64,000 nucleotides of DNA from a virus. Position 1 is the stretch's first letter, and every line of letters starts with the position of its first letter. Positions 2,549 through 49,635 of this stretch are shown here, piece by piece. The translations under genes and the position numbers were made by a program. The notes beneath the pieces were generated by a model. The model did not search any database, had not been told where the DNA came from, and worked only from the letters and a program-made list of their open reading frames with translations. The stretch is from IMG/VR virus record IMGVR_UViG_3300025085_002722, positions 62,001-126,000 of that record; one strand, given 5' to 3'.

Positions 2549-2553
2549 CAGTT

Positions 2554-2700: not shown

Positions 2701-2740
2701 GGTAAATACATGTAACAATTAAAACATAGTAAAAGATTAT

Positions 2741-2902
2741 ATGTCAAACAAAACACCATATGAAATCCGTCTAGAACTCATCCAAGAGGCTAGACTTATT
2801 CTTCAAGCAAAAGCAAATAAACCTGAGTACATGCCAACGGCAGAAGAGGTAATTGAAGAAGCAGAAAAACTTAATAAGTTTGTATCCAAAAGACCTGAAT
2901 AA
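2741..2902 (+). CDS. small conserved-type phage protein, 53 aa
   Basis: MSNKTPYEIRLELIQEARLI and onward, predicted as two charged amphipathic helices. The TPYEIRLELI opening resembles a small hypothetical protein common in marine T4-like phages (from memory, not searched). Just downstream lies the tRNA gene. No catalytic motif. Function unknown. Confidence 0.7.
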   Translation: MSNKTPYEIRLELIQEARLILQAKANKPEYMPTAEEVIEEAEKLNKFVSKRPE

Positions 2903-2935
2903 GTCTTCCTTCCCTAAGTAAATACTATTAAGATA

Positions 2936-3010
2936 GCCACCGTAACTCAGTGGTAGAGTAACTGATTTGTAATCAGTAGGTCGTCAGTTCGAGTCTGACC
3001 GGTGGCTCCA
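2936..3010 (+). tRNA. tRNA-Thr (anticodon TGT)
   Basis: Cloverleaf: acceptor stem GCCACCG/CGGTGGC, D-arm around CTCAGTGGTAGAG, anticodon stem ACTGA/TCAGT with loop TTTGTAA (anticodon TGT, reads ACA), T-arm containing GTTCGAGTC, discriminator T and an encoded CCA (3008-3010). ACA is a favoured Thr codon in these AT-rich genes, so it likely supplements host decoding. Confidence 0.95.
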
Positions 3011-3014
3011 TTTT

Positions 3015-3041
3015 AATAAATAAATGCGACACACATATAAT
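3015..3041 (+). promoter_or_regulatory. late promoter AATAAATA plus TATAAT box
   Basis: AATAAATA (3015-3022) and a TATAAT (3036-3041) precede the glycosyltransferase gene, with an AGGAAT Shine-Dalgarno at about 3042-3047. No good -35 is seen for the TATAAT. Unlike many late promoters here, this one leaves a real leader. Confidence 0.5.
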
Positions 3042-3051
3042 AGGAATACAA

Positions 3052-4137
3052 ATGGCACGAAATAAAAAGTCCAGAAATAAAAAACACAATCCAGCAAAAG
3101 CACAGAATACTATTAAAGGTAATTCAGAAGTGGACTCAATGGTATCAGAAAATCTTTCACCCCAACAAATAGCAGAGCAGGAAACACTATTCAATCTGCT
3201 AGAAAGAAAAATAGAAATCCCTGTACAAAGTTTTGAAGATAAGCATTTATTCATTGCAACGCCGTGCTACGGTGGGCAAGTAACAGAACCATATTTAAGA
3301 AGTATGGTTAGGCTTATATTGTTAATGAATCGATTTAATGTTAAATTTACAATGAGCACATTGGCAAATGAAAGTTTAATTACACGTGGTAGAAATACAC
3401 TTGTAAGTTTCTTTATGGAAAACAAAGATGCCACACACTTGATGTTTATCGATGCTGACATAGAATTTAATCCAGAGGATGTACTAAGAATGTTAGCATA
3501 TGACAAACCAATTATTGTAGGTGCATATCCTAAAAAAGCACTAAATTGGGATAGTATATTACAAGCCGCAAGAACACCTGGCTTAAATGAAACCCCGGAA
3601 ACAATCGAAGGACATAGTTCGAATTATGTTACTAATTTTGCATTCCAAGAAGATGAAAATGGCAATAGAATGCCATCAGTACAAATAAAAGACAATTTAA
3701 TTAAATTGTTAGACGGCGGCACTGGATTTATGACAATTAAAAAAGATGTCATACAACAGATGTTTGATCATTACCCTGAAACAAAATATAATAATGATCT
3801 AAATATTGACCAAAAGTTTGAACCGTTTATGTATGCATTATTTGATTGTATCATTGATCCAGACACAAGGCGTTACTTGTCAGAAGATTATACATTCTGC
3901 AGACGTTGGCAACAAATGGATGGCGAAATTTGGCTAGATCCTAGAGTTAGTCTTAACCATGTTGGGCATTATACATTTAATGGTAATGTAAGAAAAATGC
4001 TTACAGGCGAAGCAAGAGTGCAAACAGAATATGTATCACCGGATCAACGACCATTTGTTATTGGTGCATCAGATAAACCACAAGAACAACCACAAGAACA
4101 ACCACAGAAATCTATACAAATAAGTAAAAAGAAATGA
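3052..4137 (+). CDS. GT-A-type glycosyltransferase-like protein
   Basis: 361 aa. After a basic, disordered N-terminus (MARNKKSRNKKH) comes a domain with LFIATPCYGG, an N-terminal strand of nucleotide-sugar transferases, and the acidic FIDADIEFNPED at about residues 135-146, a DxD-like metal/sugar-nucleotide site. Later LDGGTGFMTIKKDV and the SEDYTFCRRW segment match the acceptor half of such enzymes. The C-terminus carries EQPQ repeats from a 12-bp tandem duplication (4081-4104). It probably glycosylates host surface glycan, phage DNA or virion protein (inference). The stop overlaps the next start (ATGA). Confidence 0.75.
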   Translation: MARNKKSRNKKHNPAKAQNTIKGNSEVDSMVSENLSPQQIAEQETLFNLLERKIEIPVQSFEDKHLFIATPCYGGQVTEPYLRSMVRLILLMNRFNVKFTMSTLANESLITRGRNTLVSFFMENKDATHLMFIDADIEFNPEDVLRMLAYDKPIIVGAYPKKALNWDSILQAARTPGLNETPETIEGHSSNYVTNFAFQEDENGNRMPSVQIKDNLIKLLDGGTGFMTIKKDVIQQMFDHYPETKYNNDLNIDQKFEPFMYALFDCIIDPDTRRYLSEDYTFCRRWQQMDGEIWLDPRVSLNHVGHYTFNGNVRKMLTGEARVQTEYVSPDQRPFVIGASDKPQEQPQEQPQKSIQISKKK

Positions 4138-4952
4138 AAAAAATAAGTATATTATTAGCAACAAGACAAAGAACAAAACTTTTAGATAAAAGCATTGATA
4201 GTTTATTATCAAACGTAAACAACACAGATAATGTCGAAATTATGTTAGGCATTGATAATGATGATCAAGAAACATTAGATTTTGTACAGTCAGAAGACTT
4301 TCAAAACAAAATGCAAGAAGAGTATAATGTAGACGTTCAAGCAGTTTTATTTGATAGATTAGGCTATAAAAATTTACATCAATACATGAATCAACTTTGG
4401 GCACAGGCAAATGGTGAATGGCTTATGTTATGGAACGACGATGCTATTATGGAAACTAAAGATTGGGATTTAGAAATTGGAAAATTTGATAATGAATTTG
4501 CATTATTAAAATTTAATCAAACAAATCACAAACATCCATACGCATTATTTCCAGTAATACCCACAGACTGGTGCAGGCTTATTGGTACGTTTAGTATGAA
4601 TGCACAAAATGATGCATGGCTAAACTTAATTGCAAAACCGTTAAATATTATTAAAGATATACCTGTAGATGTATTTCATGACCGATTCGATCTTACTGGA
4701 AACAACGATGACGATATTTTTAGAAGCAGAGAATATGCAGAAGGCAATCCAGAAGATCCAAATGATTTAATGAGTGAAAATAATATCAGAATGCGAGATG
4801 CAGTTATACACAAAATTGCATGGTTCTGTAACAGAATTGGTCAAACAGATACAAGCGATTATTTTGATAAAGTAAAAGCAGGCGAAATAGACCCATTTGA
4901 TGATTGGAAAAAAATAAGAGAAGAATCCGTGGGATTAGGCTCAGGTTTATAA
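4134..4952 (+). CDS. family 2-like glycosyltransferase
   Basis: 272 aa. The GT2 N-terminal signature KISILLATRQRTKLLDKSI (residues 2-20), then LGIDNDD and LMLWNDDAIM (about residues 99-108), a DD-type metal site, support a GT-A fold. A late RSREYAEGNPEDPND loop with Asn/Asp is seen. It is coupled to the preceding glycosyltransferase by a 4-bp overlap, so the two probably build one glycan. No membrane segment. Acceptor unknown. Confidence 0.75.
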   Translation: MKKISILLATRQRTKLLDKSIDSLLSNVNNTDNVEIMLGIDNDDQETLDFVQSEDFQNKMQEEYNVDVQAVLFDRLGYKNLHQYMNQLWAQANGEWLMLWNDDAIMETKDWDLEIGKFDNEFALLKFNQTNHKHPYALFPVIPTDWCRLIGTFSMNAQNDAWLNLIAKPLNIIKDIPVDVFHDRFDLTGNNDDDIFRSREYAEGNPEDPNDLMSENNIRMRDAVIHKIAWFCNRIGQTDTSDYFDKVKAGEIDPFDDWKKIREESVGLGSGL

Positions 4953-4955
4953 ATA
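4948..4955 (+). promoter_or_regulatory. perfect late promoter TATAAATA before bL33
   Basis: Identical to the T4 late consensus. It ends 5 nt before the ATG at 4961 and lies across the stop of the previous gene. A leaderless bL33 transcript is expected. Confidence 0.8.
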
Positions 4956-4960
4956 GTAGC

Positions 4961-5164
4961 ATGGCAAAGAAAGATAAAAGACGAACTATTGTATACTTAA
5001 TTCCAGAGGGCGAGACTAGGGATCATCATACTTATCATTATACCGCAGTGAAAACTAAAGCACTTGTGATAGAAAACAGGAAATTAAAACTTAAAAAATA
5101 TAATCCTGTAAAGAGAATTCATGAGTATTTTGTTGAAGCAAAACTTCCCCCTCATAGTAAATAA
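4961..5164 (+). CDS. rpmG: ribosomal protein bL33
   Basis: 67 aa, close to the family length (about 55). Residues from about 28 onward (HYTAVKTKALVIENRKLKLK then KYNPVKRIHEYFVEAKLP) align with the bacterial bL33 pattern: aromatic-Thr-x-x-Lys-x-Lys, E-x-L-x-L-K-K-[FY], P-V-x-R-x-H, EAK. The zinc-ribbon cysteines of some bL33 are absent, as in the cysteine-free proteobacterial form. The start at 4961 is fixed by the late promoter and the MAKKDKR opening. The product would join the host 50S subunit near the E site. Phage-encoded bL33 is rare compared with bS21. Confidence 0.8.
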   Translation: MAKKDKRRTIVYLIPEGETRDHHTYHYTAVKTKALVIENRKLKLKKYNPVKRIHEYFVEAKLPPHSK

Positions 5165-5197
5165 ATAGTTGACAACTACTATAAATAGTTGTATAAT
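5160..5197 (+). promoter_or_regulatory. sigma70 promoter with embedded late motifs
   Basis: TTGACA (5169-5174), 17-nt spacer and TATAAT (5192-5197). Two late-type boxes, AATAAATA (5160-5167) and TATAAATA (5180-5187), lie in the same stretch. It drives the gamma-glutamylcyclotransferase gene at 5207, which has an AAGG Shine-Dalgarno. Confidence 0.8.
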
Positions 5198-5206
5198 AAG
5201 GTTATT

Positions 5207-5644
5207 ATGGAAGAAACAAGACATAAAATATTTGTTTACGGCACACTTAAATCTGACGGTATAAGAGGCCTTGATAAGCCTATATACGATTTCTATGATT
5301 CAACCAAAGAAATTGAAAAAGAATTTATAGGTAAAGCAGTCACAACAGGCTCTAAATTTTCAATGGTAGATCTAGGTTCATTTCCTGGCGTTATTGTCAA
5401 TGGTTACAATGACATATATGGCGAAGTATATGAAGGTGGTAACGACTTGTTAGAATACTGCGACATGATAGAGGGGCACCAAGGCGATAGAGCAAAAAAC
5501 TTTTATCACAGAGATGAAGTTAATACATCTGAAGGCAAAGCATTCATTTATCATTTAGATCCATACTATGGAGATGAATATCCTAACTATAAAGAAAGTA
5601 ACCGAATTACATTCAAAAATAATATATTAACATGGCTAAATTAG
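5207..5644 (+). CDS. gamma-glutamylcyclotransferase-like (GGCT/AIG2) protein
   Basis: 145 aa. The family signature VYGTLK is at residues 10-15, with GEVYEG and LLEYCDMIEGH (the catalytic Glu region) in the middle and a C-terminal YHLDPYYGDEYP strand. GGCT-fold enzymes release 5-oxoproline from gamma-glutamyl amines or peptides, for example in glutathione turnover. ATG 5207 was preferred over an upstream TTG because the latter lies inside the promoter. The gene overlaps peptide deformylase by 13 nt. Confidence 0.75.
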   Translation: MEETRHKIFVYGTLKSDGIRGLDKPIYDFYDSTKEIEKEFIGKAVTTGSKFSMVDLGSFPGVIVNGYNDIYGEVYEGGNDLLEYCDMIEGHQGDRAKNFYHRDEVNTSEGKAFIYHLDPYYGDEYPNYKESNRITFKNNILTWLN

Positions 5645-8176: not shown

Positions 8177-8854
8177 ATGGATAGTTATTGGGAATGGAAT
8201 AAAGAAAATTTTGAATGGCATTACGACCCAGCATCTAAGCATTCTGATGTACAATATGTAGGAAAATACATATCTAATCCTAAATCATTGCTTACAGACG
8301 TTGTAAGTGCGTCTAGTGACGCCTTAAGTGACGATGATGCATACAATGAAGTAAGTATCAAAGGCTCACCCTACAACAAAGAAGCCGCAGAAATAATGGA
8401 AGGGTATCATAACGATTTAACTCGTGCAGGATTTACTCCACATAATACAGGCGGCAGACAAACATGGAATGTATGCGATACGTTTCGTAAAATGGGCAAA
8501 TTAAGTGGATTAAAAAATCCGCAAATAATGTTTTTAGAACAACCACCAGGAAAAGCAATTCCATGGCATAGAGACAGTTATAATAATTACAGACGTAACT
8601 TTGCTAAAGTTAGCGACGACACTGAAGTAATACGTTACCTAGTTCAACTCAATGACTGGAAATGGGGACACTATGTATCAGTGGGCAATGATGTACTACA
8701 CCAATACCAGATAGGCGACATACATTGCTGGAAAGAAGGCATCTATCATGCTACCGGTAATGTAGGCTATTGGCCTAGATGGAGTTTGACTATTACTGGA
8801 CAAGTAACACCCGATTCATTGCATTTGCACGAACCAAAAGAAATACTAATATGA
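8177..8854 (+). CDS. Fe(II)/2OG oxygenase-like cupin protein
   Basis: 225 aa, starting [13 protein letters not shown] jelly-roll iron site is suggested by [14 protein letters not shown] (WHRD), then [19 protein letters not shown], a distal His in GIYHATGN and Arg/Trp in YWPRWSLTI. This is the second oxygenase-like gene in a row, one nucleotide after the previous stop. The target may be a peptide or nucleotide; not resolvable here. Confidence 0.6.
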
Positions 8855-9180
8855 CATTTGTAGTTGGAAGTCCTTGTGTAGGGTGTAAAGATACTGCCTG
8901 TGTAAAAGTATGCCCGGTAGATTGCTTTTATGAAGGTCCTGACATGCTTTACATTGATCCTGATGAATGCATTGACTGTGCATTATGTGAGCCAGAGTGT
9001 CCAGTAGAGGCAATTTGGAGCGATGACGAATTACCACAAGAAGAAATACCATTTATTGAAATCAACGAAAAAGGTGCAGAAAAATACAGAGATGCAAATA
9101 TCGTAGATCAACAAGACCCAATGGCACATAAATCACCATATACTACTGCTGAAGCAATCAAGGTAGTCCAGATAGATTAG
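8851..9180 (+). CDS. fdxA: 7Fe [3Fe-4S][4Fe-4S] ferredoxin
   Basis: 109 aa. Cysteines at 9, 12, 17, 21, 25, 40, 43, 46 and 50 match the spacing of Azotobacter ferredoxin I (8, 11, 16, 20, 24, 39, 42, 45, 49) with a constant +1 offset. Segments CPVDCFYEG and [14 protein letters not shown] are near-diagnostic. The family length of about 106 also fits. It would carry electrons in the cytoplasm, perhaps to oxygenases or radical SAM enzymes encoded nearby. It overlaps the preceding gene by 4 nt. Confidence 0.95.
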
Positions 9181-12438: not shown

Positions 12439-12660
12439 ATGAAAGTTGAAATATATAGCAAACCACAATGTCCATACTGTGATATGGCAAAAGCATTAGC
12501 AGAACAAAAAGGTCACGACTTAACAGTTAAAATGTTAGACGTTGACTTTGACAGGGAAGCATTAATGGAAGCATTTCCAGGAGCAAGAACATTCCCACAA
12601 ATCATTGTAGACGGTGATAAAATTGGTGGGTATCAAGAATACAAAAAATTAGTAGGCTAA
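12439..12660 (+). CDS. grx: glutaredoxin
   Basis: 73 aa. The active site CPYC lies in IYSKPQCPYCDMAKALAEQ, followed by the cis-Pro segment ARTFPQIIVDG and GGYQEYKKLVG. The length is typical of phage glutaredoxins such as T4 NrdC. It can reduce ribonucleotide reductase or protein disulfides and may serve Fe-S trafficking. The 3' end overlaps a convergent minus-strand gene by 4 nt. Confidence 0.95.
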   Translation: MKVEIYSKPQCPYCDMAKALAEQKGHDLTVKMLDVDFDREALMEAFPGARTFPQIIVDGDKIGGYQEYKKLVG

Positions 12661-32735: not shown

Positions 32736-33244
32736 AAATAGACAAACTAGAAACTGAATTAAAAGATTCAGAATATAGGTATCAAAAGCAATTAGACGAA
32801 TTAAACGATAAGTACAATAGAACACTAGAAAGTCTCGAAGATGCCAAGAATTCGCTTGACATAAAACCAAAAGAAGTTATAATAGAAAAAGAAATCATTA
32901 AGGAAGTAATTAAGGAGGTTCCTGTTGAGGTCGAGAAAATTGTCGAAGTTGAACGCAAGGTCGAGGTCCCAAAGGAGGTTGTGGTCACTCGCGAAGTCGA
33001 AGTCCCAGGACCCGAGCGTATTGTTGAGGTCCCCGGACCAGAACGAATCGTGGAACGAATCGTGGAAGTCGAAGTCCCCGGACCAGAAAGAATAGTCGAA
33101 AAGATTGTCGAAGTACCAGTAGAATCTAAACCCAAACCCAAAGTACCCAACAGTTGGACATTTACTCCAAAGAAAGATCTGCCAGTAGATAACGCAGATA
33201 ATCCTACAGATAGTAAATACTACATTAAGAAACCTAAAAGTTAA
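32723..33244 (+). CDS. C-terminal coil/repeat extension in the -1 frame
   Basis: Open from the A10 run to TAA 33242-33244, with NLKIDKLETELKDSEYRYQK, a coil matching that of the upstream gene, then a Val/Glu/Pro repeat zone (VPGPERIVE) and SWTFTPKKDLP near the end. No ATG lies near the junction; a GTG at 32981 could start a short 87-aa form. One extra A at the run, or a -1 frameshift, fuses it to the 533-aa protein. Confidence 0.65.
   Translation, partial: KKNLKIDKLETELKDSEYRYQKQLDELNDKYNRTLESLEDAKNSLDIKPKEVIIEKEIIKEVIKEVPVEVEKIVEVERKVEVPKEVVVTREVEVPGPERIVEVPGPERIVERIVEVEVPGPERIVEKIVEVPVESKPKPKVPNSWTFTPKKDLPVDNADNPTDSKYYIKKPKS
32856..32883 (+). promoter_or_regulatory. possible internal sigma70 promoter upstream of clpX
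   Basis: TTGACA (32856-32861), 16-nt spacer, TATAAT (32878-32883). It lies inside the coil-coding frame, 360 nt before clpX, and could give clpX early expression. It may be chance. Confidence 0.4.
33002..33100. repeat. three copies of a 27-bp VPGPERIVE-coding unit
   Basis: Copies at 33002-33028, 33029-33055 and 33074-33100, the last two separated by an 18-bp partial copy. GC-richer than the surroundings. Confidence 0.85.
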
Positions 33245-34482
33245 TGACAGACGACAACAACACAGATAAAAGTTCACTATCTTGTAATTTTTGTGGTAAG
33301 CACAGGAACGAAGTTAATAAACTTGTAGCAGGTCCAGATGTTTACATTTGCAACGAATGTATAGAATTATCATACAAAATCATAGACGATGAGTTCACCG
33401 AAGAAGATCTGCAATTAGATAATATTGCCGACCCTAAAGAGATACGTGAATACTTGGACAAATATATTACTGGTCAAGATTATGCTAAAAAAGTTTTAAG
33501 TGTAAGTGCATACAATCATTACAAACGGATTGAGTCACCTGTAGTAGATGATGTTGAAATAGAAAAAAGCAATATACTTATGCTAGGACCATCTGGTGTT
33601 GGTAAAACATTACTTGCAAAAACATTATCTAAAAAACTAAAAGTGCCATTTACAATAGCAGATGCTACAACACTAACTGAAGCAGGTTATGTTGGTGAAG
33701 ATGCAGAAAGTGTACTAGAACGTTTAATACAAGCCGCTAATGGAGATATAACATTAGCAGAAAAAGGCATAGTGTTTATAGACGAAGTTGATAAAAAGGC
33801 CCGTAGCAGTGAATCTAACACGTCTACACGTGATGTTAGTGGCGAGGGTGTGCAACAAGCACTCTTAAGATTAATAGAGGGCACAACAACGTATATTAAT
33901 GTTGGTTCCAATAAATTATCAAGTGAAAAAATTGAATTCAGTACTGAAAACATTCTGTTCATATTGGGCGGTGCATTTGTTGGATTAGATAAAGTGATTA
34001 AGGCCAGGCTCAACAAGAAAAATAAAATAGGATTCAATTCTGCACTTGACAACGAAAACGATTTAGACAAAGATGTTTATTTACATGCCACACACGAAGA
34101 TATTATACAATACGGTTTGATACCAGAACTAGTTGGTAGACTTCCTGTGTTGTCAGGTTTAACAGACTTAGATGTAAGCGACTTAACACACATACAGAAA
34201 GAAAGTAAAAATAGTGTAAGCAATCAAGTCAAAGCATTGTATAAACTTGAAGGTATTGATGTAGGCTTTACAGATAATTTTTATAAAATTGTATCAAAAG
34301 AAGCAATTAAATTAAAAACAGGTGCCAGAGGAATACGAAGTGTATTAGAACAATTTTTTATTGAACTAACATATAACATTACAGATCTTAAGGCACAAAA
34401 AGTCAAAGAAATTTACATTGATAATCTTGATCATGAAACTATTTCATATATCAAAGAGGTTGACAATGAAGAAGATAACTAG
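33244..34482 (+). CDS. clpX: ClpX, ATP-dependent protease unfoldase
   Basis: 412 aa, full family length. N-terminal zinc domain with C14/C17 and C36/C39; Walker A GPSGVGKT (115-122); pore loop GYVG (149-152); Walker B FIDEVD (179-184); ELVGRLPV and GARGIRS sensor region. The ClpP-docking tripeptide IGF is kept at 262-264 (KNKIGFNSA), so it should dock host ClpP; no ClpP is seen in the window. It probably redirects proteolysis during infection, alone or with the ClpS at 42365 (whose usual partner is ClpA). TAATG overlap with the upstream frame. Confidence 0.95.
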   Translation: MTDDNNTDKSSLSCNFCGKHRNEVNKLVAGPDVYICNECIELSYKIIDDEFTEEDLQLDNIADPKEIREYLDKYITGQDYAKKVLSVSAYNHYKRIESPVVDDVEIEKSNILMLGPSGVGKTLLAKTLSKKLKVPFTIADATTLTEAGYVGEDAESVLERLIQAANGDITLAEKGIVFIDEVDKKARSSESNTSTRDVSGEGVQQALLRLIEGTTTYINVGSNKLSSEKIEFSTENILFILGGAFVGLDKVIKARLNKKNKIGFNSALDNENDLDKDVYLHATHEDIIQYGLIPELVGRLPVLSGLTDLDVSDLTHIQKESKNSVSNQVKALYKLEGIDVGFTDNFYKIVSKEAIKLKTGARGIRSVLEQFFIELTYNITDLKAQKVKEIYIDNLDHETISYIKEVDNEEDN

Positions 34483-34514: not shown

Positions 34515-34928
34515 TTGAGTAATAAATTTAAAGGCAACGATATCAAGAAAGGATATCAATATGATCGCAAAAAGAAGCAAGACTTCAAAAAGAAGTACGA
34601 GCCACGTGATCCATTTGATTCTGCAATATATGTTCGCAATGGTAATGTAGACCAAGCAATTAGAACTCTTAAGAAAAAGTTATTAAAAGATAACTTTCAA
34701 AAAGAACTTGCTAAAAGAGAGTACTACGAAAAGCCATGTGAAAAACGCAAACGCAAAAAAGCACAAGGCGTAAAAAAAGCACAGAAATCTTTTCGTGATA
34801 AAGTAATGAGAGGTGAAGCATTGCCTCCTGTTAGAGGTGGTCAAAAACATCTTAAAGGTAAAAGATCACTGAACAAATATCGTGCAACTAAGAGGCTCCT
34901 ACAACAAAGAGATTGGGCAAGGAAGTAA
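34515..34928 (+). CDS. rpsU: ribosomal protein bS21 with long extensions
   Basis: 137 aa, versus about 70 for cellular bS21. The core at about 37-92 (IYVRNGNVDQAIRTLKKKLL, then KREYYEKPCEKRKRKKAQG) matches bS21: VRxGNxxxAIR, F/YYEKP, basic helix. A basic N-terminal extension (KGNDIKKGYQYDRKKKQDF) and a 45-residue C-terminal extension (PPVRGGQKHLKGKRSLNKYR) are added. TTG start with GAGGT Shine-Dalgarno. bS21 contacts the anti-Shine-Dalgarno region, so it could alter initiation on leadered or leaderless messages (inference). Confidence 0.9.
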   Translation: MSNKFKGNDIKKGYQYDRKKKQDFKKKYEPRDPFDSAIYVRNGNVDQAIRTLKKKLLKDNFQKELAKREYYEKPCEKRKRKKAQGVKKAQKSFRDKVMRGEALPPVRGGQKHLKGKRSLNKYRATKRLLQQRDWARK

Positions 34929-34930
34929 GT

Positions 34931-35731
34931 ATGAAATATGACTTTGCACTTGTAAGTGGTGGGTTTGATCCTGTACACTTAGGACACTTACAAATGTTTC
35001 AAGATGCAAGTAAGTTAGCAGACAATGTAGTAGTGCTACTTAACAGCGACGAATGGCTCACTAGAAAGAAGGGCAGACCTTTTATGGACCAAGTCCAAAG
35101 AAAAGCCATACTAGAAGAAATGAATTGTGTTAGTCAAGTAATCATACAGTCCCAAGATGCAGATGATAGTAGCAGTAATGCTATTATGAACTTTGCTATA
35201 AGACATCCTGAAGCAAAAATATGTTTCTGTAACGGAGGTGATCGTAGTGACACCAAAAGAATACGAGAAACAGATGTATGCAATAAATACCATGTAGCAC
35301 TAGAGTTTGGCATCGGTGGTGAAGCCAAAGTTGCAAGTAGTAGTAAATTACTGCAAGATTATACAACCACAGTCATAGAAAGACCGTGGGGTAGATATAA
35401 ACAACTATATGCTGGTGAAGGATATGTTGTTAAGGAACTTGAAATAGATCCAGGGAAAGAACTAAGCGATCAATTTCATTTTCACAGAAGCGAACACTGG
35501 ATAGTATTAAGCGGTATAGGACATCTTAGGCAAGGTGCTACTAGACAAATGCCTGAAAGAGAATTTTATATTCCAGAAGGCGAAAGTGTATATATTAGGC
35601 CAGCACAGACACACAAACTAAGCAACCCAGGCCAAGTGCCGTTGCGTATAGTTGAAGTTTGGGCAGGAGAGATATTAGAAGAAACCGACATTAAAAGATT
35701 GGATGTTGGACCAAACTACGGAGAAAAATGA
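34931..35731 (+). CDS. fusion: cytidylyltransferase-like plus mannose-6-phosphate isomerase-type cupin
   Basis: 266 aa. Residues 1-140 hold a HIGH-family nucleotidyltransferase (SGGFDPVHLGHLQMFQDA; a KVASSSKLLQDY end motif). Residues 150-266 are a type II phosphomannose isomerase cupin (VIERPWGRYKQL, FHFHRSEHWIVLSG with metal His residues, IRPAQTHKLSN, LRIVEVWAGE). Together they would interconvert and activate a phospho-sugar. Start MKYDFALVSGG is 3 nt after the bS21 stop. Overlaps the cytochrome gene by 4 nt. Confidence 0.85.
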   Translation: MKYDFALVSGGFDPVHLGHLQMFQDASKLADNVVVLLNSDEWLTRKKGRPFMDQVQRKAILEEMNCVSQVIIQSQDADDSSSNAIMNFAIRHPEAKICFCNGGDRSDTKRIRETDVCNKYHVALEFGIGGEAKVASSSKLLQDYTTTVIERPWGRYKQLYAGEGYVVKELEIDPGKELSDQFHFHRSEHWIVLSGIGHLRQGATRQMPEREFYIPEGESVYIRPAQTHKLSNPGQVPLRIVEVWAGEILEETDIKRLDVGPNYGEK

Positions 35732-36177
35732 GAGAATTAGGAATGGCTTTATTAGGAACAATGGCAATAGCATTGTTCTTTGGATTTAAAATTTATCCAG
35801 ATTTAGAATACACAGGCGGTAGCAGTAATACCAGTTGCACAGGCGAATGTTATGTTGCTTATGTTGAACAGTTTGGTACACCAGCAGAAATAGAGCAACG
35901 TAAAAAAGAATTAGCAAGTGCTGATGAGTTCAGTAGTATTAGAAGTTTATGGGCAGGTTGTGCCGCATGTCACGGAGCAGATGGCGGTGGTATGGGACCA
36001 TTTCCAAGTTTACAAGGTAGAGATAAATCATACATTGTAAACAGACTTGTACAATACAAAAACAAAGAACAAGTTGGTGCAATGAGTAGCACCATGTGGG
36101 CACAGGCAGGAATGCTAAGTGATCAAGACATGGAAACAATAGGTAAGTTCATAGAAGCAGGCTTACCAGGAAAATAA
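35728..36177 (+). CDS. class I c-type cytochrome, membrane-anchored
   Basis: 149 aa. N-terminal hydrophobic helix (LGMALLGTMAIALFFGF), a signal-anchor. Haem site CAACH (C78, C81, H82) followed by GADGGGMGPFPSL, and a candidate axial Met at 119 or 123 (VGAMSSTMW). The end helix DQDMETIGKFIEAGLP is typical of cytochrome c553/c555-type domains. Extra Cys at 37 and 41. It would sit in the periplasm, anchored to the inner membrane, matured by host Ccm. A c-type cytochrome in a phage is unusual. Confidence 0.88.
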   Translation: MRELGMALLGTMAIALFFGFKIYPDLEYTGGSSNTSCTGECYVAYVEQFGTPAEIEQRKKELASADEFSSIRSLWAGCAACHGADGGGMGPFPSLQGRDKSYIVNRLVQYKNKEQVGAMSSTMWAQAGMLSDQDMETIGKFIEAGLPGK

Positions 36178-36183
36178 GGACTT

Positions 36184-36624
36184 ATGGAATTGAAAGAATT
36201 GAACACATCGAAAGTATGCGATATACTAAACAGAATTGTGGAAATGGAAATGGCTGGAGTTGTACGTTATGCTCACAGTTCACTAATGGTAACAGGACCT
36301 AACAGGATTCCTATTGTTGCCTTCTTACAAGAACAAGCAAACGAAAGTTTAGCACACGCCTTACAAGCAGGTGAATACATCACAGGCTTTGGTGGACACC
36401 CAAGTCAAAACATTTCTGCTATCGAAGAAAATCACAATCATAGTGTTGAACAAATTCTCACAGAAAGTTTACAACACGAAATGGGTGCTGTAGAAATGTA
36501 CAAAGAATTGCTAATGGAAGTTGCTGATGCAAGTATTATGCTTGAAGAATATGCTAGAGGTCAAATTGGCATGGAAGAACAACACGCATTAGAAATAAGG
36601 AAGATGCTACAAGATTATTCATAA
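36184..36624 (+). CDS. bacterioferritin/ferritin-like iron protein
   Basis: 146 aa, four-helix bundle. Ferroxidase-type ligands: E in VEMEMAGVVRYAHSSL, E..H in QANESLAHALQAGEY, E in LQHEMGAVEMYKELL and E..H in GQIGMEEQHALEIRKM. The pattern fits bacterioferritin-type ferritins (about 150-160 aa). It would oxidise and store Fe(II), or buffer iron. It lies 6 nt after the cytochrome gene. No signal peptide. Confidence 0.85.
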   Translation: MELKELNTSKVCDILNRIVEMEMAGVVRYAHSSLMVTGPNRIPIVAFLQEQANESLAHALQAGEYITGFGGHPSQNISAIEENHNHSVEQILTESLQHEMGAVEMYKELLMEVADASIMLEEYARGQIGMEEQHALEIRKMLQDYS

Positions 36625-36848
36625 TGGACAACTCGCAAAAAATACATCTATCTAAAGCAGTAACATGGCGTATTTTAGCAAGTATTATCACAGCAAGTTT
36701 GGCACTAGCATTTGGTATGCCTCAAAAGGCAGTAGGCGGTTTATTTGTAGCAGATTTAATTATTAAGTTTATATTATACTATGGCCATGAAAGATTGTGG
36801 TATAATTTAGCAAAATTGTTTGAAAATGATCAGAAAGGTAATTCGTAA
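36624..36848 (+). CDS. DUF2061 membrane protein, 74 aa
   Basis: KAVTWRILASIITASLALAF and a second helix to IKFILYYGHERLW, the DUF2061 signature (KAxTWR...YYxHERxW). Two short membrane helices. In bacteria it often accompanies sulfate-assimilation genes; here a sulfotransferase gene lies convergent and overlaps its end by 19 nt. TAATG overlap with the ferritin gene. Confidence 0.85.
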   Translation: MDNSQKIHLSKAVTWRILASIITASLALAFGMPQKAVGGLFVADLIIKFILYYGHERLWYNLAKLFENDQKGNS

Positions 36849-41855: not shown

Positions 41856-42296
41856 ATGGTAAACAAGCAAATCAGATTCTCTACAGAATCACTTTCCCCA
41901 CTATTTAAAGCCAGCATTGGCTTCGACAACTTAGTAAACGAGTTCTTCAATGAGCCTCAGTTTACAAATTCTACAGGGTATCCCCCTTACAACATATCTA
42001 AAAACAAAGACGATGTCTATGAAATTACTCTTGCAGTTGCAGGATTTAAAAAGTCAGATATCGAAATTGAACTTGAAGACGGTACACTAAAAATTACTGG
42101 AACTTCTAATGTTTTAGATGCTGATGAAGTTGAATACTTACACAAAGGTATTGCAGAACGCAACTTTGTGAGAACATTCAAACTTGCAGAATATGTCGAA
42201 GTTAGTTCAGCAAAACTCGAAGATGGTATTCTAAGAGTTGGCTTAGAGAGAAATGTTCCTGAGGCAATGAAGCCTAAGAAAATAGATATTTCTTAA
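41856..42296 (+). CDS. hsp20: Hsp20/IbpA-type small heat-shock protein
   Basis: 146 aa. The alpha-crystallin domain runs from about 46 to 135 with YEITLAVAGFKKSDIEIELE, KGIAERNFVRTFKLAEYVEV and DGILRVGLERNVPE; the C-terminal KPKKIDIS carries the I-x-I anchor. It holds unfolded proteins, as in other T4-like marine phages. Strong Shine-Dalgarno. Followed by a hairpin and clpS, so chaperone and protease adaptor are linked. Confidence 0.95.
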   Translation: MVNKQIRFSTESLSPLFKASIGFDNLVNEFFNEPQFTNSTGYPPYNISKNKDDVYEITLAVAGFKKSDIEIELEDGTLKITGTSNVLDADEVEYLHKGIAERNFVRTFKLAEYVEVSSAKLEDGILRVGLERNVPEAMKPKKIDIS

Positions 42297-42364: not shown

Positions 42365-42661
42365 ATGAGTAAAGCAGATATTAGAACTAGAAAAACAGTA
42401 AACCTCAAATATCCTGACAGGTTTAAAATTGTTATTTTAAATGATGATTATACACCATTTGATTTTGTTATACAATTACTTGTAGAGTTGTTTAATAAAA
42501 ACATAGACGAAGCAAAAAAAATTACTTCGCAAGTGCATGAACAAGGGCAAGGTGTCATAGGTTACTACAATGCCGAGATAGCCGAGCAAAAAACCAATGA
42601 AGCAACTGTGGCTTCACGAACAGCAGGGTATCCTCTAGTCGTGAAGGTGCAGAAAGCATGA
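42365..42661 (+). CDS. clpS: ClpS, Clp protease adaptor
   Basis: 98 aa. [20 protein letters not shown] (N-degron pocket Asn/Asp region), [20 protein letters not shown] (His-Glu region) are diagnostic. ClpS delivers N-degron substrates to ClpA and blocks ssrA substrates. Only ClpX is phage-encoded in this window, so ClpS would work with host ClpA. Its last codons overlap the SufB start (ATGA), joining proteolysis and Fe-S genes in one operon. Confidence 0.95.
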
Positions 42662-44106
42662 AGCAATTTGACGAAGTAAATAAAACTTATAAAGAAGGCT
42701 TTTCAACTGACATCGAGTCATTCTCATTGCCGCCAGGTTTAGATGAAGACGTAGTTCGTACTATAAGTAGTATGAAAAATGAACCCGAGTGGTTACTTGA
42801 CTTTAGACTAAAAGCATTTGCACATTGGAAAAATAGTGTCGAGCCTACATGGGCAGAACTAGATTTCAAACCGATTGACTACCAGAGTATTTCTTATTAC
42901 TCGGCACCAGAAAAATTTAACAAAGACGACATACCACAAGAGATTTTAGATACGTTTGAAAAGTTAGGCGTACCTTTACATGAACGTAATGCATTACTAG
43001 GACTAGAAGAACCAGATCCAAATATCATTCCCACAGTGGCCATTGACGCAGTATTTGATAGTGTCAGTGTTGCTACAACATTTAAAGCAGAATTAGAAAA
43101 ACACGGCATTATATTTTGCAGTATCAGTGAAGCAATAGAACAACACGAGGACTTAGTTAAAAAATATTTAGGTACAGTAATACCTATTAAAGATAATTAT
43201 TTTGCTACACTTAACTCAGCAGTATTCACAGACGGCACATTTTGTTACATACCACCAGGTGTAACATGCCCAATGGAACTAAACACTTACTTTAGAATAA
43301 ATGCTCGTAACACAGGGCAGTTTGAACGCACACTTATCATAGCAGACAAGGACAGCAAGGTTAGTTACTTAGAAGGCTGTACTGCACCTGCTTACTCACA
43401 AAACACGTTACACGCGGCCTGTGTAGAACTAGTGGCCCATGAAAACGCAAATATCAAATACAGTACAGTACAAAATTGGTATCCAGGAGATGAGAACGGT
43501 GTAGGTGGTGTATATAATTTTGTAACCAAAAGAGGACTATGTAAAGGTGATAACAGTAAAATATCTTGGACCCAAGTTGAAACAGGTTCCGCAATTACTT
43601 GGAAGTATCCTTCCTGTATATTACGAGGTGACAATAGTGTTGGCGAGTTCTATAGTGTTGCGGTAACAAAAGGCAAACAACAAGCAGACACAGGAACCAA
43701 AATGTTCCATGTCGGAAAGAACACAAAGAGCACTATCATAAGCAAGGGCATAAGTTTTGATGATAGTGTAAACACTTACAGAGGCAAAGTAAGAGTAAAC
43801 AAAGGTGCCACAGGTAGTAGAAACTACACTAGGTGTGACAGTTTAATGTTAGACAACAGTCTAGCAATTACACTACCAACAGTAGAACAACACAATAACG
43901 ATAGTGTTGTTGAACACGAAGCAAGTACAAACAAAGTATCTGAAGACCAATTGTACTACTTAAACACGTTAGGCATTGATGAAGAAAATGCAACTAATCT
44001 AATTGTAAACGGGTTCTGCAAAGAAGTTTTTAAAGAACTTCCTTTGGAATTTGCCGCTGAGGCAAGACAACTTTTAAACGTAACACTAGAAGGAGCAGTT
44101 GGATGA
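42658..44106 (+). CDS. sufB: SufB, Fe-S cluster scaffold subunit
   Basis: 482 aa, near full length (about 480-495). Hallmarks: [70 protein letters not shown], the persulfide-accepting Cys in YTRCDSLML (C393, equivalent to C405 of E. coli) and [18 protein letters not shown] with H420/E421. SufB forms the SufBC2D scaffold with SufC and SufD. First suf gene; overlaps clpS and the following SGNH-like gene by 4 nt each. Confidence 0.97.
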
Positions 44107-45230
44107 AGCCACTAATTATATGCGGTGGATGTAGTTTTACACATGCCCCAGATAGTTGGGCACAGGTCCTTGGCGGATATAAAAAAATCTGGAATGATCA
44201 GGCTCAATATCAGTATAGTCTATGGAAAGAGTACGGTAAAGTAGTTGCCAATGCAAACATGGATCATTTGCCGGAAAGCATATATGATGTATGGGACGAG
44301 GGAGAGGATATATCTAAATATGCAGATGTAATGGTAGTAGGCCAAGGTGCAAGTGGTAATCAACTTAACAGCAGAGTTATTAGACACGCAGTTGAACAAA
44401 ACGAAGGTAGACAAATTATTGTATTATGGCAATTAAGTAGTTGGTCTAGAAATGAATATGCCATTAATAGATTTGACTCTATTGACTACAACACAATAAT
44501 AAATGAACACGATGCACATCATATGTATAGCATACCTTATGCTAGAAGATTTAGAAATTGTGCTCATATAGACGGAGGCGAACATGACCCGAATGTTCCT
44601 GCAGGTTGGGGGTATGATTTTGAAGAAACTGTAAATGAGAATTATGCTGGGATTACTCCGCCTCAATACAGAGCCGAACACAGAGTATGGATGAAGCAAG
44701 GCGGCGGATATACAGGCTGGGAAAACAGGCGACTATTTGAAGTATTTAAAGAAGATTATATAAATCTTAATACCGCGGATAATCAGTCAGTAAAAAATTT
44801 AGAAAACGTAGAATATATGAAACTTTTTTGCGAATCTAAAAACGTGCAATTATTAATGTTCCCTGGTTGGTATTGGTGCTGGGATGGTATGTTTAATTTT
44901 GTTTCATCTGAGAGCACACTATATTCCAAAGATGTATTAGATAGAGTAGGATTAAGTGCAGTTGATAATATAAACAATACCGGAGGTATAGCAGAATATG
45001 GTATACAAGACGAACTATATTGTACACCTGATGCAACTAACCAGAACCCAGAAATAATGTTACTAAGCGGTGACGTATATACTGCTAACGAAACATCAAG
45101 TATTTACGAAAAGGCAAAACTAGACGACGGCACATGGTGGTGTGGTAATCATCCGAGTGGATATAATCATGCAAAATTTTGCAACAAATGGCTAAAGCCT
45201 AAAGTACTAGAAATGCTTGACAACGCATAA
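44103..45230 (+). CDS. SGNH/GDSL-like protein inserted in the suf operon
   Basis: 375 aa. Block [17 protein letters not shown] with the Ser of the GxSxx nucleophile position, [11 protein letters not shown] (Gly/Asn block) and a C-terminal [15 protein letters not shown] with the catalytic-type His. It resembles GDSF proteins at 56340, 57496 and 61490. Tyr/Trp/Asn rich. Its position between sufB and sufC, with a 4-nt overlap upstream, is not explained by Fe-S chemistry. Confidence 0.65.
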
Positions 45231-45246
45231 TAAATTAGTGTATAAT
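45217..45246 (+). promoter_or_regulatory. sigma70 promoter immediately before sufC
   Basis: TTGACA (45217-45222), 18-nt spacer, TATAAT (45241-45246). Start would be at or near ATG 45253, leaving almost no leader. Confidence 0.75.
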
Positions 45247-45252
45247 AACAAT

Positions 45253-45951
45253 ATGAAATTCCAAGACGTAAGTATAACAATCGACAATAAAGAGTTACTA
45301 AAAAACTTTAATAAAACAATTTTACCCGGTGAAACCGTTGTTGTTATTGGACCTAATGGTTGCGGTAAAAGTACATTAGCACATGGCATCATGGGCCGAG
45401 GCGACATCGATGTAGAAGGTTCAATAAAATTTAATAACAAAGAAATTACTGATATGGAAACATTTGAGAGATCAAAAGAAGGAATATTTGTCAGTTGGCA
45501 AACTCCTCCAGAACTACCAGGCGTTTCTACATTCGGACTAATTAAAGAAATCAAAGAAATTAAGTCTGCACAAATAGGTACAGAATTAAAAGAATTTAAA
45601 AACACATTGACTAAAGTAGGATTACCTGAATCATGGACTACTAGACCAGTTAATGTCGGCGGCAGTGGCGGAGAAAGAAAAAGAGCAGAGTTATCTAATT
45701 TACTTACATTACAACCACAATGTGCTATATTAGATGAAATAGATACAGGTTTAGATTCAAATGGATTAAAACTTGTTGTTGAAGTTATTAATGACCGCAA
45801 AGAGAAAAACTTATCAACTATTATGATAACACACAATATCAATACTGTACAAAACTTAGAATACGATTATGGTTTAATGTTTGAAGACGGTAAATTAGTT
45901 GAAGTTGACAGCAATGTAGTTGAAAAGAAATTAAAGGAAGGTTATGACTAA
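45253..45951 (+). CDS. sufC: SufC, Fe-S assembly ATPase
   Basis: 232 aa. ABC ATPase: Walker A GPNGCGKST (33-41), Q-loop VSWQTPPELPGV, SufC-type signature VGGSGGERKRAELSNLL and Walker B AILDEIDTGLD, then ITHN with the switch His. SufC drives conformational change in the SufB-SufD pair. Slightly shorter than cellular SufC (about 248). Start at 45253 chosen because the longer frame would run through the promoter. 8-nt overlap with sufD. Confidence 0.97.
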   Translation: MKFQDVSITIDNKELLKNFNKTILPGETVVVIGPNGCGKSTLAHGIMGRGDIDVEGSIKFNNKEITDMETFERSKEGIFVSWQTPPELPGVSTFGLIKEIKEIKSAQIGTELKEFKNTLTKVGLPESWTTRPVNVGGSGGERKRAELSNLLTLQPQCAILDEIDTGLDSNGLKLVVEVINDRKEKNLSTIMITHNINTVQNLEYDYGLMFEDGKLVEVDSNVVEKKLKEGYD

Positions 45952-47119
45952 GTCATGCGAGGATTTACTAGATTTATTAATCGAAGTTGGCGGTGAACAG
46001 TGGTCTATAAATGCAACTAAAGAATTCTTAAGCAAGTCCTTACATGATTCTTACACACCAGTAAATTACAAACTTGAAGAATATTCTTCTGCTGTATTCA
46101 AACGTCTTTGGACAAAAGAATTAGACTTTCCGTTTAATGGTCAAGGTAATGCCAGTGTATACAGTAACGGCTTTAATGACGAAGTGCCACAAAATGTTAG
46201 ATTCAAGGCAGGACAATTTTCGGGTAATCACGAACTAAACCAACTCGGTGGCCATATATGGCATGATACCGGTGATGCACACGGAAACGTTTATGACTAC
46301 TATACAAGGTCAATAGATGTTTTTAAAAACAGCACTATACCAGGATTACTAGCAACTGCATTAACAGGTGGAACAAGTGTATGCATGTTAAGTACATGGG
46401 AAAACAAACATGCATTAAATTTTGTTAATGAAGATGTAGACAATGAAAATAATTCATTAAATGCAGGTGTATACATAGTGCATATTAGAGACAAGTCTAA
46501 TCTTACAGTTAAAGAATCTATCCTTAACGGAAAAGATATGTACTTAAACAAATGGATTTATATTATTGGGTATGACAGTAAATTAGAACTTACTAGAGAG
46601 GTAATTAACAGCAATGGCGTAGTTGATGATGTCAGTATAATTCAGTATCCTGGCAGTGAACTAATTGTGAATACATATGACAAAGACCCACAATGGCGGC
46701 ACTTAGATATTACTGCATACCAAAACACAACAACAACTGTCAATGGTAGTGTGTTATGCAAAAACTCTAGTTCATCTCATAATGTAATTGTTAACCATAA
46801 AGGTAATAATAGCACTAGCACAATAAAATATCACTCTGCAATTTACAACAACAATGTAACAGATTTTATTGGCAGTATAAATGTTGATAAAAAAGCAGTA
46901 GGTACAAACTCCAGTATGATAAACAAAAATCTATTAATGGACAAGACTAGCAAAGCAAAGTCAATACCGAAACTAAATATCAATACCAAAGAGATACAAT
47001 GTACACACGGTTGTACAATAAGCAATGTAGATGAAAACGAGATATATTATCTTGAAACATTAGGAGTTAGCAAAACAAATGCAAGAAAAATGATTGCAGA
47101 CGGGCACATACAAATATGA
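45944..47119 (+). CDS. sufD: SufD, Fe-S scaffold subunit
   Basis: 391 aa. Divergent beta-helix with the diagnostic C-terminus: IPKLNINTKEIQCTHGCTIS (H355 matching the cluster-site His of E. coli SufD), then VDENEIYYLETLGVSKTNAR. A lower-identity N-terminal half is usual for SufD. Pairs with SufB. Overlaps sufC (8 nt) and sufS (4 nt). Confidence 0.92.
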   Translation: MTKSCEDLLDLLIEVGGEQWSINATKEFLSKSLHDSYTPVNYKLEEYSSAVFKRLWTKELDFPFNGQGNASVYSNGFNDEVPQNVRFKAGQFSGNHELNQLGGHIWHDTGDAHGNVYDYYTRSIDVFKNSTIPGLLATALTGGTSVCMLSTWENKHALNFVNEDVDNENNSLNAGVYIVHIRDKSNLTVKESILNGKDMYLNKWIYIIGYDSKLELTREVINSNGVVDDVSIIQYPGSELIVNTYDKDPQWRHLDITAYQNTTTTVNGSVLCKNSSSSHNVIVNHKGNNSTSTIKYHSAIYNNNVTDFIGSINVDKKAVGTNSSMINKNLLMDKTSKAKSIPKLNINTKEIQCTHGCTISNVDENEIYYLETLGVSKTNARKMIADGHIQI

Positions 47120-48294
47120 TTAACAGTAACACAAGAGATCAATTTAAGGCACTAAAGTCTGGCAAGGTGTATTTTGATACAGCGGCAACCAGCCTTACTC
47201 CTGATGAAGTTGTAGATAAGATGGCTGAGTACTACAACGAGTACCCTAGCAATGTACACAGAGGTAACTATGCTTGGGGAGATGTTGCTACAACAGAATA
47301 CGAAGGCGTAAGAGACAAAGTAAAAGACTGGTGTAATGCACACAATTATGAAGTAGTATTTACATCAGGTGCTACATTTTCTTCTAACTTAATTTATTAC
47401 AATTTAAAAAATTTAGGTATATCTAAATCCATAGTAAGTCTTAACGACCATCATGCTAATATTGTACCTTACAGATTACACAACTCTAACGTTGAACAAA
47501 TACCTGTACCAGATAACGGAGTATTTAATGAACAAGAACTGTTTAAATACGGGTCACTAGACGCACACATTTTGCATATAAGCGGGGTTTTCAATGCAAC
47601 TGGGCAAATACTGGATATAGAAAAAATTACGCACACAGCAAAAGAATTAGGTGGCTTAGTAGCATTAGACATGAGTCAACATATGAGTCATGAAAGTTTA
47701 GACGCAGATAAAGTCAATGCAGATTTTTACTACTGGAGTTCACATAAACACTATGGGCCAACAGGAACAGGTATATTATTAATTAAAAAGTCTATTGCAG
47801 AACACATGGAACCACTAATAGGTGGCGGTGCCCAAGTAAGCAATGTAACTGATAGTAAAACAGAGTTTTGGGAAATACCGTTAAAGTTAGAAGCAGGCAC
47901 ACCTAACATAGCAGGAGTTATAGGCACCGGTGCAAGTATAGACTTTATGCAAAAGATTGGCATGGATGTAATACACAGTCACACACAAAACCTATTAGGA
48001 ATCATTATCAAAGAATTAAGAGAAAGAAAGATACCTATTATATGCGACGAACTACCACTAGAGAAAAGAGGTGGCTTGGTAAGTTTTACCATACCAGGTC
48101 AACATTCATATGATGTTAGTGTAGCATTAGGATTAAAAGATATATATGTTAGGTCAGGCAAACTATGTGCCCACCCTGTGGTAAACAAATTATCGGACAA
48201 TGGATTTATTAGAGTAAGTGTCGGTGTAAACAACAACGAAGTTGATGTTGCAAGATTCTTAGAATCGCTAGACCAAGTATTAACATATGGATGA
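47116..48294 (+). CDS. sufS: SufS-type cysteine desulfurase
   Basis: 392 aa, PLP fold type I. VYFDTAATSLTP at the start, DHHANIVPYR (His stacking on PLP), the Schiff-base Lys K211 in SSHKHYGPTGTGIL and the persulfide Cys C351 in VRSGKLCAHPVV. It supplies sulfur to SufB. No SufE or SufU is seen in the window, so a host partner is needed. Overlaps sufD by 4 nt and the SufT-like gene by 8 nt. Confidence 0.97.
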   Translation: MINSNTRDQFKALKSGKVYFDTAATSLTPDEVVDKMAEYYNEYPSNVHRGNYAWGDVATTEYEGVRDKVKDWCNAHNYEVVFTSGATFSSNLIYYNLKNLGISKSIVSLNDHHANIVPYRLHNSNVEQIPVPDNGVFNEQELFKYGSLDAHILHISGVFNATGQILDIEKITHTAKELGGLVALDMSQHMSHESLDADKVNADFYYWSSHKHYGPTGTGILLIKKSIAEHMEPLIGGGAQVSNVTDSKTEFWEIPLKLEAGTPNIAGVIGTGASIDFMQKIGMDVIHSHTQNLLGIIIKELRERKIPIICDELPLEKRGGLVSFTIPGQHSYDVSVALGLKDIYVRSGKLCAHPVVNKLSDNGFIRVSVGVNNNEVDVARFLESLDQVLTYG

Positions 48295-48604
48295 TTTAAG
48301 AAAATTTATTGCTGGCAAAGTAAAAGCAGAACTAACAAAAATATTTGATCCTGAAGTACCAGTAAACATTGTTGACTTAGGTCTTATATACAATGTAGAA
48401 ATCAATCAAGAAATGGACTGCCAAGTACTAATGACACTAACAGCACCAAATTGCCCAGCCGCAGAAATATTACCAGCAGAAGTACATGCCGCGGCGGCAA
48501 CTGTCGAAGGCGTACAAAAAGTAAATGTTGATATTACTTTTAACCCACCTTGGAATCCAGATCTTATATCAGAAGAAGCACGTTTTACACTAGGCATAGA
48601 ATAA
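48287..48604 (+). CDS. sufT: SufT/DUF59 (MIP18-like) Fe-S maturation protein
   Basis: 105 aa. KIFDPEVPVNIVDLGLIYNV (DPE..xIVDLGLIY), MTLTAPNCPAAEILPAEV with the conserved Cys, and FNPPWNPDLISEEARFTLG are diagnostic of the DUF59 family. It helps transfer Fe-S clusters to apo-proteins. Being last in sufBCDS-T, it matches the gene order of alphaproteobacterial suf operons (from memory). Confidence 0.93.
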   Translation: MDDLRKFIAGKVKAELTKIFDPEVPVNIVDLGLIYNVEINQEMDCQVLMTLTAPNCPAAEILPAEVHAAAATVEGVQKVNVDITFNPPWNPDLISEEARFTLGIE

Positions 48605-48607
48605 ATA
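48600..48607 (+). promoter_or_regulatory. late promoter AATAAATA with SD leader
   Basis: Overlaps the SufT stop. The leader of about 35 nt before ATG 48643 has AAAAGGAA. Confidence 0.65.
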
Positions 48608-48642
48608 AATGCTTACGCCACAACAGGTGTAAAAGGAAATAT

Positions 48643-49065
48643 ATGAATATAATAAATCACATCACTACTAACCTGAAAACAGTATTAGTAGACAGATGGA
48701 AAGACTGGAGCGGAAGAAGTAATAGACCAGAGTATTGGTTCTTTACATTGTACGCAAGTCTTATTGCCTTAGTGGCAATGGGAATAGATAACCTTATAGG
48801 ATTCACATTCTTTAATTGGCTTGATCCATTCTCAGAAAGCAAGAACTCAGGAATATTTGTAGCGATCTGGATATTGGCAACATTACCAGCATCACTAAGT
48901 GTTACTGTAAGACGACTACATGACAGAGGTCATAGTGGTTGGTGGGTAATTGCTTTCTTTGTACCTGTGCTAAACTTCTTACCATTATATTGGTTAGTGA
49001 GAGCGGCAAAGGATACACCAGAAGCAAAGAAATACAAAAACCCTTATGGAAAACTACCTAAGTAA
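48643..49065 (+). CDS. DUF805 membrane protein, 140 aa
   Basis: WKDWSGRSNRPEYWFFTLYA then membrane helices (LIALVAMGIDNLIGFTFF; FVAIWILATLPASLSVTV), the RRLHDRGHSGWW signature and a last helix VIAFFVPVLNFLPLYWLV, all typical of DUF805 inner membrane proteins. ATG 48643 supported by AAAAGGAA upstream. Function unknown. Confidence 0.88.
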   Translation: MNIINHITTNLKTVLVDRWKDWSGRSNRPEYWFFTLYASLIALVAMGIDNLIGFTFFNWLDPFSESKNSGIFVAIWILATLPASLSVTVRRLHDRGHSGWWVIAFFVPVLNFLPLYWLVRAAKDTPEAKKYKNPYGKLPK

Positions 49066-49077
49066 AGGAGAAAAATA

Positions 49078-49635
49078 ATGTCATCAATTAAGAGAAAAGT
49101 ACCAGTAATGGATTTTCCTGTCAGAGTAGAAACTGACGAGAACCCAGGATGGAAATGGGATACACTTACTTATGACCAAATTTTTGCAGGTAAAAAAGTT
49201 ATAGTATTTGGATTACCAGGTGCTTATACTCCTACTTGCACAACTAATCAATTACCAGGCTATGAGGCTTTCTACGAGCAATTCAAAGCAGAAGGCATTG
49301 ATGAAATCTTTTGTTGTTCAGTAAATGATACATTCGTAATGAACTCTTGGTTCAGAGAAGTTAATGTAGAAAAAGTAAAACCAATACCAGACGGTACAGG
49401 TAAATTTACTAGACAAATGGGATTCTTAGTTGATAAGAGTGTCATAGGTTTTGGACTTAGAAGTTGGAGATATGCAATGATTGTTAATGATGGTAACATT
49501 GAAGCAATTTTTGAAGAGCCAGGATACAGCGATGAATGTCCTGATGATCCATATCAAGTCAGTGATCCAAACACAGTTTTACAGTTTATCAAATCAGGTA
49601 CACTACCTAGCATAGACGACCAAAACGAAGAATAA
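49078..49635 (+). CDS. peroxiredoxin (Prx5/AhpE-like redoxin)
   Basis: 185 aa. Peroxidatic motif LPGAYTPTCTTNQLPGYE with Cp in PTCT and Thr two before it; SVNDTFVMNSWF and a later RYAMIVNDG strand complete the thioredoxin-type fold. A glutaredoxin (12439) could reduce it. It would remove H2O2 made by host respiration or iron chemistry. A clear terminator follows. AAAGGAG Shine-Dalgarno. Confidence 0.93.
   Translation: MSSIKRKVPVMDFPVRVETDENPGWKWDTLTYDQIFAGKKVIVFGLPGAYTPTCTTNQLPGYEAFYEQFKAEGIDEIFCCSVNDTFVMNSWFREVNVEKVKPIPDGTGKFTRQMGFLVDKSVIGFGLRSWRYAMIVNDGNIEAIFEEPGYSDECPDDPYQVSDPNTVLQFIKSGTLPSIDDQNEE

Follow-up and report, generated by a model that had tools for sequence, protein, structure and literature searches.

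Single-haem anchored class I cytochromes normally shuttle electrons from bc1 to an oxidase; c4, cy and their relatives are established examples. On the viral side, the photosynthesis genes of phages are the textbook case of control over energy metabolism. Genes for c-type cytochromes have also been placed on viral contigs, namely two phage copies of soxD, which are sulfur-oxidation genes without one or both cytochrome c motifs (PMC8190135), and a cytochrome C mentioned in Microcystis viruses and filed under photosynthesis (PMC12542629), but neither is a widespread stand-alone family of T4-like phages. Viral cbb3 oxidase reads have been described (PMC3474794), and energy-metabolism genes are listed in a study of cellular contamination in viromes (PMC3877843). 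The literature that we searched, with incomplete coverage and thus with earlier mention elsewhere possible, contained no further phage respiratory cytochrome and no comparable stand-alone respiratory carrier for phages of heterotrophs.

Here we describe a c-type cytochrome gene in a stretch of 64,000 nucleotides (the window) that comprises bases 62001-126000 of a 130,385-bp IMG/VR record. Over the haem domain the encoded protein is 40% identical to 2zzs and 32% identical to 1cno, the c554/c552 proteins of Vibrio and Pseudomonas, with which it has in common the class I single-haem fold, CxxCH and the Met motif; the mature chains of these bacterial proteins, however, are without its N-terminal anchor and C37/C41 linker. 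Cytochrome c4, including 8smr, resembles it in haem-domain sequence, fold and probable electron-carrier role, but has two haem domains where the phage protein has one plus an anchor helix. The full-length architecture (anchor, CxGxCY, CxACHG, Met motif) is that of an anchored family of marine gammaproteobacteria (L091 from Halioglobus, and L200-L210), which are stand-alone chromosomal genes with varied neighbours; L091 is roughly 32-37% identical to three viral forms.

Results

The cytochrome reading frame is intact, running from an ATG at 35728 to 36177 on the + strand and encoding 149 residues. It passes the gathering cut-off of Pfam Cytochrom_C (PF00034; E=1.2e-7, 33.4 bits against 21.3), and its best PDB relatives by both sequence and fold are monohaem c554/c552 and dihaem c4 (by sequence, c554 2zzs at 1.5e-15, 8yts at 3.5e-13 and c4 proteins at ~1e-11). 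The predicted fold (mean pLDDT 79.5, the linker being poorly defined at 30-36) matches 2zzs with E 4.2e-6 and a TM-score by target of 0.84. The haem-attachment motif CAACH occupies residues 78-82 (35959-35973, + strand) and is the sole CXXCH among all called ORFs of the window. Towards the C-terminus lies the candidate axial ligand M123, in an SSTMWAQA motif (36094-36096, + strand), which is invariant across 49 viral and cellular homologues and aligned to the Met of c554. The order of CxxCH followed by a C-terminal axial Met within a class I fold is thus present, with the ligation read from the alignment, and membership of the single-haem class I cytochrome family is well supported. By these residues, His/Met ligation is expected, as in the plain electron-carrier class, and the protein would be loaded with haem. 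At the N-terminus a hydrophobic segment at residues 4-22 (35737-35793, + strand), which is the hydropathy maximum (Kyte-Doolittle 19-residue mean of 1.89 from residue 4) and falls within a helix placed by the model at residues 2-26, is predicted to be a likely uncleaved signal anchor. It is followed in the linker by a C37-x-G-x-C41 pair (35836-35850, + strand) that is found in 81/81 viral homologues as well as in the full-length cellular ones. The first-pass annotation had called the gene a phage-encoded c-type cytochrome with a signal anchor, a CAACH motif and an axial Met candidate, and this description is borne out, the anchor as a prediction.

Two more specific identities were rejected. 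Cytochrome c4 needs two haem-c domains, and the ORF has one CXXCH in 149 residues. The NCBIfam equivalog cut-off for CcoP, subunit III of the cbb3 oxidase, was missed (19.9 bits against 179.95), so the protein is not an oxidase subunit; none of the NCBIfam named cytochromes reached its cut-off with this ORF.

The phage location of the gene is well supported, because its record carries genes for the large subunit of a T4-type terminase, for tail sheath proteins, a gp32-like SSB, a DNA primase and a DnaB-like helicase; a UvsW-like helicase and a class I ribonucleotide reductase (RNR) are also encoded on it. Its terminase is closest (58.5%) to the group of the Pseudomonas jumbo phage PA5oct and its NrdB is nearest (60%) to enterobacterial jumbo phages, so that the record probably represents part of a T4-like genome of jumbo size. 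Terminase genes are present on 6 of 21 other long cytochrome-bearing viral records and confirm as phage those of 109 kb (L245) and 340 kb (L302). The records of IMG/VR derive from metagenomes, and earlier claims of metabolic genes in viromes have gone astray through cellular contamination (PMC3877843). It is nevertheless extremely improbable that the cytochrome gene stems from host DNA or faulty assembly, or is a passenger with no function: it shares its record with phage hallmark genes, it recurs in T4-like synteny across hundreds of contigs drawn from many samples, and its close matches in metagenome-assembled genomes (MAGs) are themselves misbinned phage contigs. Those matches (L087-L090, with the MAG labels Sphingobacteriales, Synechococcus and Planctomycetaceae) were rejected as cellular homologues on account of their full phage synteny. 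Their misbinned nature, together with the hallmarks on the record, led us to reject a host contig or misassembly, and elsewhere too the gene sits among T4-like core genes; placement inside a host contig, which would have counted against the first-pass annotation, is thereby excluded.

Among 50,697 records of cultured phages we found no relative of the cytochrome; it has no known PHROG, and a BFVD fold search gave no match below E 1. By contrast, 393 to 493 matching stretches of IMG/VR contigs, counts that include near-identical contigs, encode relatives, mostly on marine-type contigs of uncultured phages. The earlier statement that such genes are rare in phages thus holds for the cultured collection but not for uncultured contigs. 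A survey set of 81 viral loci, representing 55 distinct proteins, keeps the CAACH, C.[GD].CY and MW motifs in 81/81 cases. Pairwise dN/dS values of 0.09-0.32 show, at the level of sequence, purifying selection on the viral cytochrome. These values and the retention of all haem-binding residues count against the idea that the protein is a decoy which competes with the host cytochrome and so lowers respiration, times lysis or blocks superinfection. Membrane anchoring and a periplasmic position, both by prediction, and changes specific to the phage sequences, the DEFSSIRSLW stretch for example, would suit a decoy, but no lysis genes were recognised beside the cytochrome, and we regard this role as improbable.

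When one genome per species was scanned, seven matches came up: the four misbinned phage contigs and three chromosomal genes, namely the nearly full-length L091 of Halioglobus (37%) and, from Halieaceae, L092 and L093. The order to which the L091 genome belongs has matches at E 1e-16 or better in 39 of 392 genomes, many of these matches being full-length and having the same linker motif; at the level of the phylum, 1e-14 is passed by 14 of 399, almost all of them over the haem domain only. Phylogeny against host cytochromes c, the check that the first-pass annotation had proposed, places the gene next to this marine gammaproteobacterial family. A 100-protein tree unites the viral and misbinned rows in a single group (100/99) that adjoins the full-length cellular family, and when more distant viral rows are added the main viral group (97/91) keeps its place next to that family. 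In the expanded tree a second viral group (L241-L246) is nested in the cellular family (97/91), and L302 and L317 cluster with the haem-domain type of Halieaceae (98/92). The starred branches require the viral label to change at least four times, and phages thus captured the cytochrome more than once. By this phylogeny, the main viral clade is a single old one, and other phages, among them a 340-kb jumbo phage, made further captures of their own. The tree is rooted at its midpoint and has a long stem branch, and it does not fix the exact donor lineage; an origin near the anchored family of Halioglobus and its relatives is nonetheless well supported by the sequences. The breadth of the cellular family argues strongly for capture from cell to phage. 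The gene has the features of an auxiliary metabolic gene, residing in a hallmark-bearing phage genome and being, as judged from the tree and dN/dS, host-derived and kept under selection.

In the window, the cytochrome start overlaps the stop of the preceding gene (ATGA at 35728-35731), which encodes a cytidylyltransferase-like and mannose-6-phosphate-isomerase-type cupin protein (34913-35731, + strand; PF01050 7.6e-33, PF01467 1e-11). A ferritin-like gene (36184-36624, + strand; PF00210 1.3e-16) begins 6 bases downstream, and its stop is overlapped by the start of a gene for a DUF2061 membrane protein (36624-36848, + strand; PF09834 3.7e-11). These four genes look like one operon. Two genes upstream of the cytochrome is a homologue of ribosomal protein S21 (34515-34928; PF01165), and the record also carries a proteostasis set consisting of a ClpX homologue with a zinc finger (33244-34482), Hsp20 (41856-42296) and ClpS (42365-42661). 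The ferritin and ferredoxin companions named in the first-pass annotation are both real, but only ferritin is adjacent; the 4Fe-4S-type ferredoxin (Fer4; 8848-9180, + strand; PF00037 5.6e-8) is ~27 kb away. Further redox genes on the + strand encode a glutaredoxin (12439-12660; PF00462 9.8e-15), the SUF Fe-S assembly proteins SufB, SufC, SufD, a SufS-type desulfurase and a SufT-like protein (42658-48604; Pfam matches PF01458 at 7.5e-74 and 4.4e-32, PF00005, PF00266 at 7.6e-95 and PF01883 at 5.2e-16, with one unassigned ORF, 44103-45230, among them) and a peroxiredoxin of the Redoxin family (49078-49635; PF08534 1.7e-24). From ClpS to peroxiredoxin (42365-49635) these genes stand in a row as a nearly complete SUF operon.

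Such companions invite the explanation that the cytochrome acts with ferritin, peroxiredoxin and SUF in dealing with peroxide, nitric oxide or iron, as stress protection and not energy supply. Ferritin is indeed the next gene here, likewise neighbours the cytochrome in L003, L004 and L010-L012, and shares the record with SUF, peroxiredoxin and ferredoxin. It is the next gene in only 6/81 loci, however, ferritin and SUF are cytosolic, and the protein belongs to a plain electron-carrier class, which makes a stress role rather unlikely. SufB/SufD also occur on the 340-kb phage record with an independently captured cytochrome, but SUF genes are on only 2/22 cytochrome-bearing records, and SUF was rejected as a general partner of the viral cytochromes. 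A cultured-phage SufB match (MaAM05) was not relied on, since its neighbours panB and panC look bacterial. Elsewhere among the contigs, L084:5971-7791 encodes a 606-residue protein whose N-terminal region resembles superoxide dismutase (phrog_1975, 1e-16).

Across the 81 loci, 424/459 neighbouring ORFs share the strand of the cytochrome. Within three genes of it are NrdB in 40 loci and a glutaredoxin homologue in 46; UvsW is a neighbour in 15, gp55 in 13 and ClpX in 7. These names come from the sequences, partly by resemblance; RNR, glutaredoxin, ClpX, the UvsW-like helicase and ferritin were identified by Pfam on the window record. In independent contigs the cytochrome sits among T4-like core genes (NrdA-NrdB-glutaredoxin, UvsW, gp55-gp47-gp46). 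A small one-helix protein of ~55-68 residues (EVHPMKQVAVMSVVQ) is encoded within three genes of the cytochrome in 31/81 loci (L013, L014, L020, L022, L032, L064, L072 and others), and the window has a weak homologue at 2187-2378; it is possibly a membrane partner of the cytochrome.

The most interesting unexplained point is the repeated placement beside or inside nrdAB. In L242, whose cytochrome was captured independently, the gene (3568-4014) again lies between nrdA (1686-3578) and nrdB (4237-5229). Together with the frequency of NrdB and glutaredoxin neighbours, this would suit a cytochrome belonging to a phage nucleotide/redox module, with indirect support of RNR (for instance by poising oxygen or redox state while the NrdB radical is assembled) in place of bulk respiration. 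A periplasmic cytochrome cannot directly reach cytosolic RNR, however, and on the window record the gene is ~40 kb from nrdAB, while other phages have it beside UvsW/gp55 or ClpX/ferritin. Adjacency is also explicable by a shared early/middle gene block. We consider RNR support unlikely; because the compartments differ, the adjacency may reflect shared expression timing instead of a direct link.

Discussion

The whole of these observations is best explained, with a probability of roughly 0.6, by an anchored c4/c554-like carrier, taken from marine gammaproteobacteria, that keeps or redirects electrons to host terminal oxidases. A marine T4-like (probably jumbo) phage would encode a single-haem class I cytochrome c descended from the anchored family of those bacteria. 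During infection, host Sec would export the protein and host Ccm attach its haem, and the uncleaved N-terminal helix would tether it to the periplasmic face of the inner membrane. There it may accept electrons from bc1, or from a different quinol or periplasmic donor, and pass them to terminal oxidases of the host, for instance cbb3, a role like that of c4/c554-type cytochromes. Once host gene expression stops, the phage copy would maintain the bc1-oxidase link, sustaining proton motive force and ATP supply, or relieving over-reduction, as host synthesis declines.

The carrier role is supported by the invariance of the haem and axial residues and by the nearest relatives, c554/c552 and c4, among the latter the c4 that belongs to the bc1-cbb3 supercomplex of P. 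aeruginosa (8smr). Genes for an oxidase or for bc1 were not seen next to the cytochrome, and its partners must therefore be supplied by the host; membrane topology and redox partners, like the phage host, the benefit and the function, are deduced here from sequence and context. The commonest neighbours, RNR and glutaredoxin, are cytosolic and count against the respiratory reading, while an SdhB-like gene near another viral-contig cytochrome, in L316, counts for it; a search for SdhB in the cytochrome phages found it on only 1/22 records. The L316 gene (5619-6323) encodes an SdhB-like succinate dehydrogenase iron-sulfur protein close to cytochrome c and SHMT genes on a 155-kb viral contig, of which the phage hallmark check covered 40 kb. 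The presence of SUF, ferredoxin, glutaredoxin, peroxiredoxin and ferritin on one record is in keeping with phage investment in iron and redox cofactors. Roles in stress handling or in inhibiting the host are possible but have less support than respiratory electron transfer, and the manipulation of host respiration proposed in the first-pass annotation is plausible and the best explanation.

A known protein class is thus apparently a widespread, undescribed metabolic gene of phages. Our analysis suggests that ocean phages with captured gammaproteobacterial cytochromes keep host respiratory electron flow running during infection. More tentatively, and with somewhat less than an even chance, repeated capture of a respiratory cytochrome c by marine T4-like and jumbo phages that infect gammaproteobacteria has been followed by its long-term retention as a near-core gene, which would make control of the aerobic respiratory chain a common ocean strategy. 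If so, phage control of aerobic respiration would parallel what phage photosystem genes are for cyanobacteria. With the family present in hundreds of uncultured contigs, multiply captured and absent from the cultured collection, phage support of host respiration becomes directly testable, and the viral cytochromes offer a sequence marker for metatranscriptomes and new isolates.
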